Assembly: GCA_022984795.1 (NCBI GenBank)
Contig: JALIHJ010000026.1
Location: 218,538-282,537 of the forward strand
DNA length: 64,000 nucleotides
Direction of reading: 5' to 3'
From: Fabrea salina
Taxonomy: Eukaryota; Ciliophora; Heterotrichea; Heterotrichida; Fabreidae
A program made the position numbers and the translations under genes. Below, one piece after another: positions 56,288 through 62,570 of the stretch. Numbering within the stretch: the first letter of the stretch is position 1; every line of letters begins with the position of its first letter. A model generated the notes under the pieces. The model made no database searches. It was not told the DNA's origin and saw only the letters and a list, made by a program, of their open reading frames with translations.

Positions 56288-57214
56288 ATGGATTTAATAA
56301 CTTTAAGGGAACTGAAACAAAAACTCCTGATTTCTAGAGAAAAGTTGTTTGAACTGCCTGACAAAGAAGACACTGGAGTCTCTGACTTAGTTGTTGAGTC
56401 CCCCAAACAGCTACTAGAAAAGAACATACAACTAGCCAAACAAAATATTCTAGCTGAGTCCAAACGAACCAAAAACCCCAGAATGCTAGACTTAGTTGAA
56501 GAAGCACAAATCCAGAGTTACCAAGACTACGAGGACTCTCTACACAACAAAGACTTCCTAGAGTCCTTTAAGTAATGACTACTTAGTTTGTCAGAACCCG
56601 TGAAACCTAAAACTAAGGAAAAAAACGTACTTCAAGTTAAAGTTTGCAACGAATCAGTCACCACAAAACTCCCAAGCAACGTTTTGCTAGTGACTGTGGC
56701 CCTGTACCACCCTAAGTACTACACAAAGACTCAAGAATGGCAAGTCCCTTCCTTTATGACCCTTTACGACCTCCACTCTTGCTTCCACTGCCTTTCTAAC
56801 TACGTTACTTTCGACACAAGCAACACCAAAGTTTCTTTCCAAATCGAAGACACTTCCTACGACAACTTAAGTGTCCCTCTCGAAGACTTGAAAGTCCGCA
56901 TTGGAGTTCCTTATGCCTACAGACACAGAGAGTGCTGCCACCACATGCTTGTTGTGACCGAAATAAAACTCATAGAACCCACTGACCCCCTTGACGCCAG
57001 TGCCTACCCCTTCCAGGTTTTTTCTTCCCCCAAAAAAAGGAGAACTTGTGAGGTCTGCAGCCACCTCCACGCTAAGTTTATCTGCCTTTACGACGAAATC
57101 TTGCAGAAGGACGTTTGCTACATCTGCGAAATGTGCTATGAAGAACTCCACTTCGACCTCGGCGGAACTCAAGTTTTCAAGCAGTATGAGGTCTACCCAT
57201 ATATCCACGACTAA
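56288..57214 (+). CDS. SNAPC3: SNAPc subunit 3 (SNAP50), with one intron
   Basis: Two apparent genes become one 303-aa protein when a 15-nt intron (56572-56586) is removed: ...DFLESF joins NLSEPVKPKTKEKNVLQVKV. The C-terminal half matches SNAP50: LLVTVALYHP, VPSFMTLYDLHSCF, HHMLVVTEIKLIEPTDPLDASAYPF and the zinc region KRRTCEVCSHLHAKFICLYDEILQKDVCYICEMCYEELHFD...YEVYPYIHD. SNAPC3 contacts the proximal sequence element of snRNA genes for Pol II and Pol III. Exon 2 alone has no ATG before its first conserved block. It is shorter than the animal protein (~411 aa). Confidence 0.85.
56572..56586 (+). other. 15-nt spliceosomal intron (SNAPC3)
   Basis: GTAATGACTACTTAG, phase 2. GTAA start, A at position 10, TAG end. 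Retention would place TAA immediately after Phe-Lys and split SNAPC3 into two frames. Confidence 0.9.
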
Positions 57215-57222
57215 CACCTTAC

Positions 57223-58347
57223 TTAAACTTTGATTTTCTCAAAGTAAGGAACAAAAGTCCTAGCTACAAGTAGCGGGAACACTAGGGTTCCCTCTCCGAA
57301 AATCTTTACGGGTTGCGCATTAGCATTGATCTTGCCCCAAGACTTTCCTTCGTCAGGGCGTGCACCTCCATCAGAAGCATCGAACTCCTGTGCTGTGTTG
57401 ATGTAAACAGCGTGCTTTAAGCCTCCGGCTATAATGTTTGAAAGCATTATGTGGTGCTTGGCAAGGCCACTTCCTACTACCACTGCTCCGGTTTTGTGGG
57501 AGTTCAAAGCAAAGTCGTATATTTTGCGAATATCTGAAACCAAGTCTACTTGCAGACCTGGGTTAGCAGTGTTGTGCATGTACAAAATGTCGCCTATGTT
57601 GCCGTCTGTAATTGATGGACAAAACACTGGAATGTTGTTTTTAGCTGCCCAGTAGTATACGCTTTCTTCGTTGTTGATTTCTCTCCCCAGCCGGTGGATT
57701 AACTTTGAGGGACTCCAAACTTCTCCCTGCTTCTGCTCTTCCAGCATCTTATCCAGCACCGGCAGGGCAAATTCCTGGAACTTTATGTAGTCGTCAGTTG
57801 CTATGATCATGTTTCCGTTCCTGTTCCAGCCTTTCTTCCTCATAGAGACTCCGTCCATCTGAAAGTCTCCTTGGTAAACATTGCCCAAGCACTTGATGAA
57901 ATCTTCTTCGATCCCACCTGTAGTGGTTACCAGGCAGTCAACTAACTTGTGTTGTACCAGCCACCTTATAATGTCACGCAGTCCACTCGTTGTGACTATT
58001 GAGGCGTAGCCTAGAAACACTGTGCACTTAGTTTTCTTGCGTTCTTCTAAATCTTTAACTGTGTCCTCAGGTTTCACTTCTTCGTCAGACAAACGCCACT
58101 CTAGCATTTTGTTGACCTCTTCAATCCCCTTACTTAAGCTATCAGCTTGTATCCCCATAGAACCGTAATGGTCCAGGATGTAATTAATGTCAGTGCTCTT
58201 ATTTAAGTCTGGACCTTTCACCACTTTCAGGTTTTCAGGTGACTCTTTGCTGTACTCATAAAGCACATCATAGACCTTCTTATTGAGTTGCTCAAACTTT
58301 GCCGCGTGGACCCATTTTGAGGCCCTGCGCACAACACTAAATAGCAT
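57223..58347 (-). CDS. DHPS: Deoxyhypusine synthase
   Basis: A 374-aa protein, family length ~369. Conserved blocks: VFLGYASIVTTSGLRDIIRWLV, LVTTTGGIEEDFIKCLG, NIPVFCPSITDGNIGDILYMH, VVVGSGLAKHHIMLSNIIAGG, AQEFDASDGGARPDEGKSWGKINANAQPVKIFGEGTLVFPLLVA. The Lys in SWGKI is the catalytic residue that forms the enzyme imine intermediate. It transfers the aminobutyl group of spermidine to eIF5A. The N-terminal MLFSVVRRASKWVHAAKF is longer and more basic than usual and could be an organelle-targeting leader or just divergent. This is the last gene before the looser subtelomeric part. Confidence 0.95.
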   Translation of the reverse strand: MLFSVVRRASKWVHAAKFEQLNKKVYDVLYEYSKESPENLKVVKGPDLNKSTDINYILDHYGSMGIQADSLSKGIEEVNKMLEWRLSDEEVKPEDTVKDLEERKKTKCTVFLGYASIVTTSGLRDIIRWLVQHKLVDCLVTTTGGIEEDFIKCLGNVYQGDFQMDGVSMRKKGWNRNGNMIIATDDYIKFQEFALPVLDKMLEEQKQGEVWSPSKLIHRLGREINNEESVYYWAAKNNIPVFCPSITDGNIGDILYMHNTANPGLQVDLVSDIRKIYDFALNSHKTGAVVVGSGLAKHHIMLSNIIAGGLKHAVYINTAQEFDASDGGARPDEGKSWGKINANAQPVKIFGEGTLVFPLLVARTFVPYFEKIKV

Positions 58348-58731: not shown

Positions 58732-61266
58732 ATGATGCAAATGGAAGCAGATATTACTCTCCAAAGAGTCATTTACGAAACTGAGAATGTCACTATCTGG
58801 AAAGGCTCCAAACAAGACAAGAACTGTGTAGTTAAAGTCTTTAAACCTAAAGACCTTCGTGAAGTCAATTCTGTCAAGTCTGAAGCCCACAAGATGCAGG
58901 GAGTTGACCACCCCTTTATTGCCAAGATTGAAGACTGCATAATGAAGGGCCAAGGCAATGAAGTATCCGAAGTTTGGCTAGTTATTGAATACTTCCCCAA
59001 GGGCGACTTGCAGAAACTGATTGACTCTAAGTCAAAGCAAAATTCTTTTTGGTCCGAACAACAGCTTTACCAGTACTTTCACCAGCTGATTGATGCCCTA
59101 GCCTACCTGGAGTCTATGGGGCTAGCTCACAGAGACATCAAGCCCCAAAACATTTTTGTGAGTGAAAGCGAAAACTTAGTCATAGGGGACTTAGGCAGTT
59201 TAAAAAAAAACTCAGAAGATTTCCAAACAATTGCGGGAACCCCCCTTTACTTAAGTCCTACTTTGAGGCAATGCTTTATGCAATTCCAAGCAGGAGTAAA
59301 CAGCGGAACTTGCCGCCATGACCCCATAAAGTCAGACGTGTATTCCTTAGGCCTTACTTTTCTGCAAATGGCCTCTTTGAAAGGAGTTGGTGAACTCATC
59401 TACCCTGGAACTATGCAACAGAAGATCTATGATAGAATAAACGAATTGCAGTATAGCAACTGGACTAAGTTATTGCTTTGGGAAATGCTCCAAGTAGATG
59501 AAAACCAAAGACCTACATTTATTCAATTGATTCAAAAGCACTTTGGAGGTGCTAGGGTCAATTTCCTAGAACAGAGCTCAATTCCAAGCAGTCAACTAAC
59601 TCAAGAACCCCTTGAGCCAGACACGATGAATCAACCAACTATAGTTTATCAAGAAAAATTCAGTGAATCCTTGCAAATCAGGGCTTACACTAAAGGAAAC
59701 AGTCTCTTCAAAGAATTTTACTCATCCAGTTTGGAAGGCTTGAACTTACTTGATCAAGAATCCAAAATCTGCAAAGCACTTTCCTCGACTGGACTATGCT
59801 TTGCTCAATTTTGCGATTATAATATTAGTTTTAACCAGGAATCGACTTACGTAGGACAGTTAGAAATAGAGTACTACCCCCGGAACTTGATGGAAGACAT
59901 TGAACAAAGAGCCCAAAACGGACAACCTTATGACCAGAGTTACTTAGAGTATGTGTTCTTCGAACTAGCCAAAGCTATCATAGAAACTAACAAGCATGAT
60001 GACCATCAAATTGACCTGAATCCCTGTCGTGTAATGCTAACTCCAGAAAATAAAATAAAGTTAGCTACCGGCAAGATCCACCAGCGAGAGTTCAAGGAAT
60101 CAAAGTTCTACATGGACCCTAACTTCTTTCACCAACCAAATGGCCATTGCCCTGAGAAAGCCAAAGTATACAACTTAGGACTTATCATTCTGCAAATGTA
60201 CTCACTTGAAACTCAACCAAAAGCTTTGGCAGAAAACATACAAGCCAGTCTGCAACGTGTTGGTGATGAGAACTTCAGAAGCATTTTAGCAAATATGCTT
60301 AACCCAGATTTCAAACAAAGACCCACTCTAGAGCAAATTTTGATCCAGATATATATTGACCAAAGAGGAGTTCGGTCCCAAATCGAGCAAAACGCTTTCA
60401 ATCAGAGTGGAGTTTTACCTGAAGAATCAAAAATCGATCAAAACACTTTCAATCAGATTGGAGTTTTACCTGAGGAATCAAAAACCCAACCCGACTCAGA
60501 TAAGTGCATAATATGCTCAATTGATCTCTCAGTCAAAGAAGTAAAAGTACTTGAATGCTGCACTCACAGGGTTCATATGGAGTGCTTCAATGGCAGTTCA
60601 AAAACTAACGACAATGAAAACTACTACTTTGTATGCCCCTTCTGTAGAAAAGAAACTCTTGCTTCTGTTATGAATTTGTTTAATTGTGATAAGTGCCAGG
60701 GAATGATTGACGCTGACAAGCTTGTAGCTTTTAATTGCAATCACAGTTTCTGTTACACTTGCTGCACAGCAAACCGTGATAGACTTGCTGCAAAGAAATG
60801 CTTAGCCTGTGAATCAAAATTTTCAGATGCTGATTTCCAAAAAGTTTCAAGGTTGCTTCAGTTGAGACACAGAGCAAGTCTAATTCCTCAAGAATGGGAA
60901 AACATTAGAAAGAAAACATTCGAAGAAGCAAAGTATTGGTAACTCTTATTTAGCAAATGCCCTAGTTGTGGTATTATAAATCGAAGTTCGGGTTGCAACG
61001 ATTACATAGTTCCTAATTGTAGATGTTCGCGGGAGCGTAAGAGAATCTGCTATATATGCAAATCAGGAATACACCCTGGCGAAACATGCATCTCTATGAT
61101 CCAGGACAAGCATTACTGTTTTAAATGCGGAGATACAACAATTACAGACGAAAATCAGTTCAATAATTGTGGAAAATGCGACCGCTATTGCATAGTATGT
61201 GGTAAATCTCACTTTGATTGTATTTCTGGAAAAGAATGCAGAGAACTGCTTTTAATAATAAGTTAA
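58732..61266 (+). CDS. Protein kinase-pseudokinase-RING/RBR fusion, with one intron
   Basis: An 839-aa protein after removal of a 15-nt intron (60939-60953). Kinase 1 (about 10-275) has VAIK-type Lys35 (CVVKVF), HRDIKPQN (133-140), DLG (153-155) and GTPLYLSP, so it is probably active. Residues about 305-555 form a second kinase fold with HRD replaced (DLNPCRVML) and DFG replaced (ATG): a pseudokinase. Two 17-residue repeats follow. Zinc modules: CIICSIDL...CTHRVHMEC...CPFC (about 590), CDKCQG...CNHSFCYTCC...CLAC (about 650), then, after the intron, KCPSCGIINRSSGCNDYIVPNC...ICYICKSGIHPGETC, like IBR/RING2 of RBR ubiquitin ligases with the Cys in SGCN, and more CxxC pairs. Spliced codon TG|C supplies a Cys. 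The combination is unfamiliar to me. Confidence 0.75.
60382..60483 (+). repeat. Two 51-bp tandem repeats in the kinase-RBR gene
   Basis: Two adjacent in-frame copies of a 51-bp unit encode IEQNAFNQSGVLPEESK and IDQNTFNQIGVLPEESK. They link the pseudokinase to the first zinc module. The copies differ at only a handful of bases, so the duplication is fairly recent. Confidence 0.85.
60939..60953 (+). other. 15-nt spliceosomal intron (kinase-RBR gene)
   Basis: GTAACTCTTATTTAG, phase 2. GTAA start, A at position 10, TAG end. The unspliced frame stops at TAA within the intron after YW; the spliced frame reads YCKCPSCG and stays open for another 103 codons of dense Cys pairs. Confidence 0.85.
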
Positions 61267-61298: not shown

Positions 61299-62570
61299 AT
61301 GCGAGAAGAAGAAGAGCGGTGCCATAACTCATGTGAACCCAAAGGACAGTGCTACATTTGCAGGACCATTCTGTGTGGTCATAAAGTCCTTGAACACCTC
61401 GAAAGAGGCCACATTATCTACCCTCTTCCCTACCACATAAAGTTCAACCCAATTTTTGAATGTGAAGAAGAAGTACTTGAGTGCAACGAAAAAATCCTTG
61501 ATGAAGTTTGGAAGATAATCACCAACAGAGTTATAGAACTCCAGAACTTAGAGGAGGAAGTAGATAAAGGCATTTATGTAACTGGCCAACCCCCTACTAT
61601 TGACCAAACCAGAGAGTGGGTAGACGCTCTCGGACCAATAAGTGAGCTCTTGTCTGAACTCGATAACCAAATTAAGGCAGTGCTGGACGATAGAGAGCCT
61701 GTAATTGTTTCTGCAGGTGCTGATAAAACCATTAGAGTTTGGAAAGATGGCCAAGCTAGAGTCTTACAAGGGCATACTGATGGAGTCAACTCAGTAACTG
61801 TTTCTCGGAATAGGGAGATACTTGCATCCGGCAGCCTAGACAACACCATTCGAGTATGGGATCTAGCTACTGGAGAAGTAATCCAAGTGCTAGAAGGTCA
61901 CAGTGGTTCGGTGCACTCCGTGGCGATTTCCAGTACAGGGAATCTCTTGGTGTCAGGGAGTTGGGATAAAACACTCAAGGTATGGAATCTGGCTTCGGGA
62001 AAAGAACTCCTAGTCCTTAAAGGTCATAGAGATTACGTAAGGTCTGTAGCCATTTCCAGCAATGATGATTTCGCTGTTTCGGCCAGTCACGACACTACAC
62101 TCAGGATGTGGAGTTTGAGTACTGGAGAGCAAATTAAGGTCCTAAAGGGACATCTGGATATCGTCCTTTCGGTGGTCATTTCTAAGAATGATCAATATGC
62201 TATCTCCGGAAGTGCTGACTACACTATTTCAGTATGGAGCATCAGTTCTGGGGAGCAAATTAGAGTCCTGCAAGGACACTGTGGTCCTGTGTGGTCTGTC
62301 GATATTTCAAGTGACGAACAGTATGTGGTATCGGGAAGCACAGACTCTACCATTAGGGTGTGGAGTTTTGCTTCGGGAAAAACAACTCGAGTGCTCAGAG
62401 GACATTCCGGAGATGTGCATTCAGTTAGTTTATCACTTGATGGTAAATACTTAGTTTCTGGTGGAAGCTTCAGGGATAAATCAGTTAGAGTCTGGGACTT
62501 TTCTACAGGCGAACAAATTCAAGAACTGCAAGGCCATACTTCTTATGTGTGGTCAGTTAAGTCTACTTAG
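61299..62570 (+). CDS. B-box-like zinc finger/WD40 propeller protein
   Basis: A 423-aa protein. Residues about 8-38 are a B-box-like Cys/His cluster (CHNSCEPKGQCYICRTILCGHKVLEHLERGH). Residues about 55-130 are helical. Residues about 133-423 hold seven WD40 units, unusually regular, each close to GHxxxVxSVxISxxxxxxxSGSxDxTIRVWxxxSGExIxVLxGH. The end at GHTSYVWSVKST, with the first half-blade EPVIVSAGADKTIRVW, would close one seven-bladed ring. The regularity suggests recent repeat amplification. It lies 32 bp after the kinase-RBR gene on the same strand and is the last gene before the telomere. GAT and AAT codons are common here, unlike in most genes further left. Confidence 0.8.
   Translation: MREEEERCHNSCEPKGQCYICRTILCGHKVLEHLERGHIIYPLPYHIKFNPIFECEEEVLECNEKILDEVWKIITNRVIELQNLEEEVDKGIYVTGQPPTIDQTREWVDALGPISELLSELDNQIKAVLDDREPVIVSAGADKTIRVWKDGQARVLQGHTDGVNSVTVSRNREILASGSLDNTIRVWDLATGEVIQVLEGHSGSVHSVAISSTGNLLVSGSWDKTLKVWNLASGKELLVLKGHRDYVRSVAISSNDDFAVSASHDTTLRMWSLSTGEQIKVLKGHLDIVLSVVISKNDQYAISGSADYTISVWSISSGEQIRVLQGHCGPVWSVDISSDEQYVVSGSTDSTIRVWSFASGKTTRVLRGHSGDVHSVSLSLDGKYLVSGGSFRDKSVRVWDFSTGEQIQELQGHTSYVWSVKST

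Follow-up and report, generated by a model that had tools for sequence, protein, structure and literature searches.

PINK1 and parkin, a protein kinase and an RBR ubiquitin ligase that act in one pathway, are two separate proteins. The Arabidopsis protein KEG, by contrast, is a fusion of a kinase with a RING finger, but it carries a single RING together with ankyrin repeats and has no IBR or RING2 module. Tandem arrangements of a kinase and a pseudokinase are found in the JAKs and in plant tandem kinases. In the PINK1-parkin pathway, the kinase is described as the activator of the ligase (PMC5679756).

The gene described here lies in a stretch of 64,000 nucleotides from the heterotrich ciliate Fabrea salina, in the following referred to as the window. 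From the sequence, it is best explained as an intact gene of a family whose products carry a protein kinase fused to a RING1-IBR-RING2 module of RBR origin and, in some members, an extra RING. A preliminary description had proposed the order kinase, pseudokinase, RING, RING and IBR/RING2, which is borne out by Pfam searches, by profile-profile comparisons and by an alignment to RBR proteins of the same genome. The gene, its parts and its neighbours are as follows.

57223-58347, - strand (opposite to the window gene): neighbouring deoxyhypusine synthase gene
58732..61266, + strand: whole gene, 839 aa (exon 1 58732-60938, 15-nt intron, exon 2 60954-61266)
58807..59541, + strand: protein kinase domain, aa 26-270 (Pfam PF00069, E 1.4e-36)
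59626..60369, + strand: predicted pseudokinase domain, aa 299-546 (profile-profile comparison)
60505..60645, + strand: predicted extra N-terminal RING finger ('RING0'), aa 592-638
60685..60810, + strand: RING1-like finger, aa 652-693
60939..60953, + strand: 15-nt intron GTAACTCTTATTTAG, phase 2, carrying an in-frame TAA
60958..61089, + strand: IBR-like module, aa 738-781 (CxxC, CxC, CxxCx4Hx4C)
60994..60996, + strand: Cys750 of the SGCN motif, the candidate catalytic cysteine of the preliminary description, at a position that is not conserved
61117..61239, + strand: RING2-like module, aa 791-831 (CxxC, CxxC, CxxC, H, C)
61264-61266, + strand: stop codon TAA at the end of exon 2
61299-62570: neighbouring WD40 gene

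The WD40 gene directly downstream has a short cysteine-rich stretch ahead of its repeats.

Compared with the systems above, the gene combines a kinase with an RBR-type module as PINK1 and parkin do, but in one chain instead of two proteins. Like KEG, it joins a kinase and a predicted RING in one protein, and unlike KEG it also has IBR-like and RING2-like modules. Judged by domain plan alone, it resembles the JAKs and the plant tandem kinases in placing a kinase beside a pseudokinase, while the order and the partner domains differ.

The gene belongs to a family, which had been missed before. At least seven members are encoded in the genome (18.33 Mb, 103 contigs), namely the window gene, C55:100k, C48:238k, C48:249k, C48:250k, C48:265k and C11:137k. 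Possible further members are long frames with a weak IBR match, including those at C48:217235 (217k), C46:10898, C46:13440, C43:84396 and C35:180560. In all seven genes, by eye, the first domain is kinase-like and the tail IBR/RING2-like, whereas the pseudokinase is present in four (window, 238k, 249k and 265k). Judged by eye as well, the RINGs are absent from C48:265k, and C55, 249k and C11 have them in reduced form, C55:100k lacking a usable first RING. The lysine, HRD and DLG/DFG motifs of the first kinase are kept in five of the seven genes and lost in 238k and 249k. Since C48:265k is devoid of RINGs and two of the first kinases are dead, neither RING nor kinase activity can be common to the whole family.

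Close public relatives were found for three family genes, with one match per protein search. P0001 corresponds to the window gene, with 623 of 736 aligned positions identical, and ends at the corresponding tryptophan; P0002 is a relative of C48:250k (82% over the zinc region) and P0003 of C11 (91% over the zinc region). All three retain the lysine, HRD and DLG/DFG motifs of the kinase. This search relied on exact 5-residue words and its coverage of eukaryotes is uncertain, so a wider distribution is possible. Within the genome, four of the family genes are clustered in about 30 kb of one contig (C48:237k-267k; loci L029, L030 and L031), a local expansion; the 265k paralogue is on the - strand of L031 (C48:262500-270500), and an RBR gene (C48:256417, L043) is located among the four. 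Elsewhere, on the - strand of L035 (C6:270500-276500), a 566-aa frame encodes a kinase-like domain with a different, cysteine-rich RING-like tail, perhaps a separate kinase-RING fusion.

The first domain of the window protein is clearly a protein kinase. It retains the VAIK lysine (VVK, K35), the HRD aspartate (HRDIKPQN) and the DFG aspartate (GDLG), as well as the motif SDVYSLG, and is predicted to be active. This activity is likely rather than certain, because by eye the domain has neither a GxGxxG glycine loop nor a glutamate at the APE position. Its nearest PDB relatives by sequence, among the best 60 of 195 matches, are the PKR-labelled chain 6npy_B, GCN2 and Nek7, which sets it apart from the PINK1-parkin system.

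The second domain keeps the HRD aspartate (IDLNP) but has lost the lysine that follows it and the DFG aspartate (KLATG). Taken alone, it scores 17.4 bits (E 0.003) against the Pfam Pkinase profile, where the cut-off is 31.7. Because the RING, IBR and pseudokinase matches of the window protein all stay below the Pfam cut-offs, we turned to profile-profile comparisons with shuffled and reversed controls. Five sequences of the second domain (window, P0001 and three paralogues) gave a score of 126.6 against eight kinases from the same genome, compared with a maximum of 21.0 in 30 column shuffles and 22.5 for the reversed profile. With the window protein and P0001 only, the score was 48.1 versus 21.7, over the C-lobe. 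By these comparisons, the domain qualifies as a pseudokinase, with a predicted kinase fold and lost catalytic motifs, as had been proposed.

The zinc region is more difficult to assign from the window protein on its own. A profile search with the 839-aa product confirms the kinase, while its matches to zf-RING_2 (aa 590-639), zf-RING_5 (aa 651-694) and IBR (aa 727-781) all remain below the curated cut-offs. The tail comprises two zinc modules, an IBR-like and then a RING2-like one, a point overlooked in the preliminary description. We compared the zinc region of six of the seven family genes with 17 reference RBR sequences, taken from loci with IBR matches in the same genome. The resulting alignment (probability 99.2, score 99.2) is co-linear over RING1, IBR and RING2, so that the second RING of the family corresponds to RING1, the first tail module to the IBR and the second tail module to RING2; a shifted register scored 48.3. 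A rerun with other settings yielded 104.3, compared with a maximum of 28.2 over 60 shuffles with the cysteine and histidine columns preserved and 23.3 for the reversed profile, and the tail alone scored 55.8 versus at most 39.5 in controls. With scores so far above those of the shuffles, the kinship to RBR proteins must extend beyond cysteine spacing, and the RBR affinity that had been claimed for this region thus holds, at the level of the family; the window sequence alone is ambiguous. Scored singly, eight of nine sequences align best in the family register. The ligands of the IBR-like module are invariant across six aligned genes, and the tail retains its zinc ligands.

Searches against known structures add little to this picture. 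Among PDB sequences, the zinc region gave seven weak matches, with TRIM proteins among them (best E 0.0095), and the tail profile gave nine, the best to a cysteine-rich PDZ-binding protein (E 0.026) and others to ribosomal zinc ribbons and to one fragment of RING finger protein 31 (E 0.16). AlphaFold models reached a pLDDT of 29.6 for exon 1 (two sequences) and of 54.3 for the zinc region (four sequences). In a Foldseek search with the latter, low-confidence model, the first 12 rows were all RBR entries, with E <= 0.001 for only one of 317 matches (TM 0.19), and its second RING resembled RBR RING1 domains in a VIA match. Given the weakness of the model, we regard these matches as minor support.

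The order and the zinc-ligand pattern of the RING1, IBR and RING2-like modules are those of RBR E3 ligases such as Ariadne/HHARI, HOIP, RNF216 and parkin. Two features distinguish the family from these ligases. Firstly, its modules are fused to a kinase, and in four of seven genes also to a pseudokinase; in the 17 reference RBR frames, no kinase motif of the type HRDxKPxN occurs within the sequence portions covered. Secondly, a cysteine at the catalytic position of RING2, taken as the site five residues ahead of the third ligand, is found by eye in none of nine sequences (the seven genes, P0002 and P0003); 238k, 249k and 250k have a cysteine elsewhere in the RING2-like loop. In the family register, nothing corresponds to the catalytic cysteine of parkin. 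The reference set itself is mute on RBR proteins of this kind, because the pattern used to select its members required a RING2 that has a catalytic-type cysteine followed by 3 to 5 residues. As the RING2-like part keeps its zinc ligands and has no catalytic cysteine, a ubiquitin thioester is most likely not formed, and the RBR-like module has most likely lost its catalytic cysteine. We therefore do not class the protein as an RBR ligase, the cysteine that defines this class having been looked for and not found at its place, even though the window sequence alone slightly favors another register. What the family possesses is a module derived from RBR proteins, newly combined with other domains. 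Among the matches listed in a phrase-based search of the open-access literature, we noticed neither a kinase-RBR fusion nor an RBR protein devoid of the cysteine; other print may hold one.

With this domain content, the protein is probably a kinase coupled to a RING/RBR-derived platform that would work without thioester chemistry, either as a RING-type, kinase-coupled ligase or as a scaffold of the ubiquitin pathway. From what is known of such domains, we infer kinase activity, E2 binding and regulation. The kinase would phosphorylate a client held by the fingers, or the protein itself, and the pseudokinase would regulate the kinase. The RINGs may recruit E2~ubiquitin or only partner proteins. 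RING0, with a first loop (CIIC) that we take to be of the E2-binding type, may bind an E2, and the remnant of IBR and RING2 would serve as a binding surface.

A less probable reading is that the zinc fingers no longer have any role in ubiquitin signaling and act as interaction or dimerization modules that regulate or place the kinase. It draws on the observation, made by eye, that nothing but the kinase-like domain and the pair of IBR/RING2-like modules is common to all seven genes, with C48:265k lacking RINGs and C55:100k lacking a usable first one, and on the first loop of RING1 (CDKC), which is without the hydrophobic residue characteristic of E2 binding. The kinship to RBR proteins, the retained zinc ligands of the tail and the constraint on both the RING1 and the tail stretches (see below) speak against this reading.

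The preliminary description had gone further in the other direction, suggesting a self-contained, phospho-regulated ubiquitin ligase with its candidate catalytic cysteine in SGCN. In terms of modules, RING0 would then act as RING1 and the second RING as the IBR, and the SGCN module would be an active RING2 whose catalytic residue is Cys750, which would amount to a complete kinase-regulated RBR ligase in one chain. Some features of the window protein agree with this: scored alone, it reaches 57.3 in that register versus 52.5 in the family register, and the first module of its tail fits RING2 (13.2 bits) better than IBR (9.1). Moreover, Cys750 is additional to the conserved zinc ligands, as expected of a catalytic cysteine, and an extra cysteine is also present in this loop of C48:265k, though at a different site, five residues ahead of the next ligand. 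The second tail module, taken alone, scores the same as an IBR and as a RING2 (25.7 and 25.9). Nevertheless, we consider this reading improbable. By the best family alignment, with its score of 99.2 against 48.3, Cys750 sits in the IBR and not in RING2, and an IBR is described in a review as a RING2 fold without the catalytic cysteine (PMC11354881). By eye, the second RING reads as a C3HC4 finger, and the end of the first tail module, CxxCx4Hx4C, is of the IBR type. Cys750 lies outside the invariant columns of the six aligned genes, and no cysteine aligns with it in the six paralogs (C11 included), P0002 or P0003. The alignment of C55 is uncertain at this loop, because of a long insertion there that itself contains a cysteine. 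The spacing differs as well: Cys750 follows the CxxC by 8 residues and precedes the next ligand by 7, whereas the catalytic cysteine of the reference RING2 modules follows by 9 or 10 and precedes the next ligand by 4 in 17 of 17, under a selection pattern that allowed 3 to 5. The insertion in the IBR of the C55 paralog (L028, C55:98500-104500, - strand) is in frame, and a 29-nt direct repeat, 84 nt apart, is present in this gene.

In a variant that we consider quite improbable, an active thioester cysteine, Cys750, would have arisen or persisted in the IBR-position module of the window gene alone. The window protein would then combine kinase and pseudokinase with a working RBR-like ligase whose center is displaced, and its paralogs would be RBR pseudo-ligases.

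The coupled platform that we favor includes a tail encoded beyond a stop codon. Read without splicing, the gene yields 736 aa from 58732 and then ends at the TAA at 60940-60942; joining 58732-60938 to 60954-61266 restores the 839-aa product, just as the preliminary description had it. A window scan for frame-rescuing introns of 10-40 nt found two 15-nt cases and showed no peak at this length, and we therefore counted the intron motif over the genome. The 15-nt motif GTAANNNYTAYTTAG occurs 518 times compared with 7 for its reversed control, whereas a 14-nt form occurs 12 times (control 2) and a 16-nt form 22 times (control 5). Within the window, GTAANNNYTANTYAG has two matches, compared with 0.14 expected (one of 100 shuffles had two), and a second 15-nt intron-like sequence, GTAATGACTACTTAG, is located at 56572-56586, just upstream of the frame 56588-57214.

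The same intron recurs across the family. With the paralogs scanned for 15-nt GT...AG sequences only, each of the four interrupted genes has its frame restored by removal of one 15-nt GTAA...AG, in the identical place and phase (2), just 5' of the first CxxC of the tail. An exact match to the motif counted above is seen in three of the four introns; that of C55 ends in TCAG. In three family genes, as in P0002 and P0003, the tail is encoded in one uninterrupted frame. Between the window gene and the C55 paralog, the tail (aa 767 to the end, 73 codons) has a dN of 0.278 and a dS of 0.95; with a dN/dS of about 0.29, the stretch 3' of the TAA is, by its substitution pattern, under constraint, as is the RING1 stretch. 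Introns of predominantly 15 and 16 bp are reported for the heterotrich Blepharisma (PMC9942806). An intron of the heterotrich type is thus well supported by its GT...AG ends, its length of 15 nt and its recurring motif. We also considered that the TAA might be read through as a sense codon and rejected this, because the uninterrupted paralogs have no residues matching the 15 nt and because GT-AG length and phase are identical in all four interrupted genes. That the TAA is instead a true stop, and the tail a decayed remnant or the product of a minor isoform, is very improbable in light of the shared intron site, the uninterrupted tails, the constraint and the genome-wide enrichment at 15 nt, although P0001, the sole public relative found of the window gene and known from protein alone, ends at the corresponding tryptophan, which is where an intron-blind gene caller would stop. 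Unspliced transcripts would yield a form without IBR and RING2, and it is possible that the intron acts as a putative switch.

For the annotation of such genomes, this means that conserved domains are lost when genes are called without regard to 15-nt introns, as illustrated by the end of P0001. If our reading is true, the family would be a naturally occurring case of a kinase and an RBR-derived module united in one chain, and it would offer a test of how kinases and ligases become coupled. Its retention of the RBR scaffold without the catalytic cysteine would likewise make it possible to test which functions IBR and RING2 have beyond thioester transfer. Judging from its predicted domains, the gene may link phosphorylation to ubiquitin signaling without being a classical RBR ligase.
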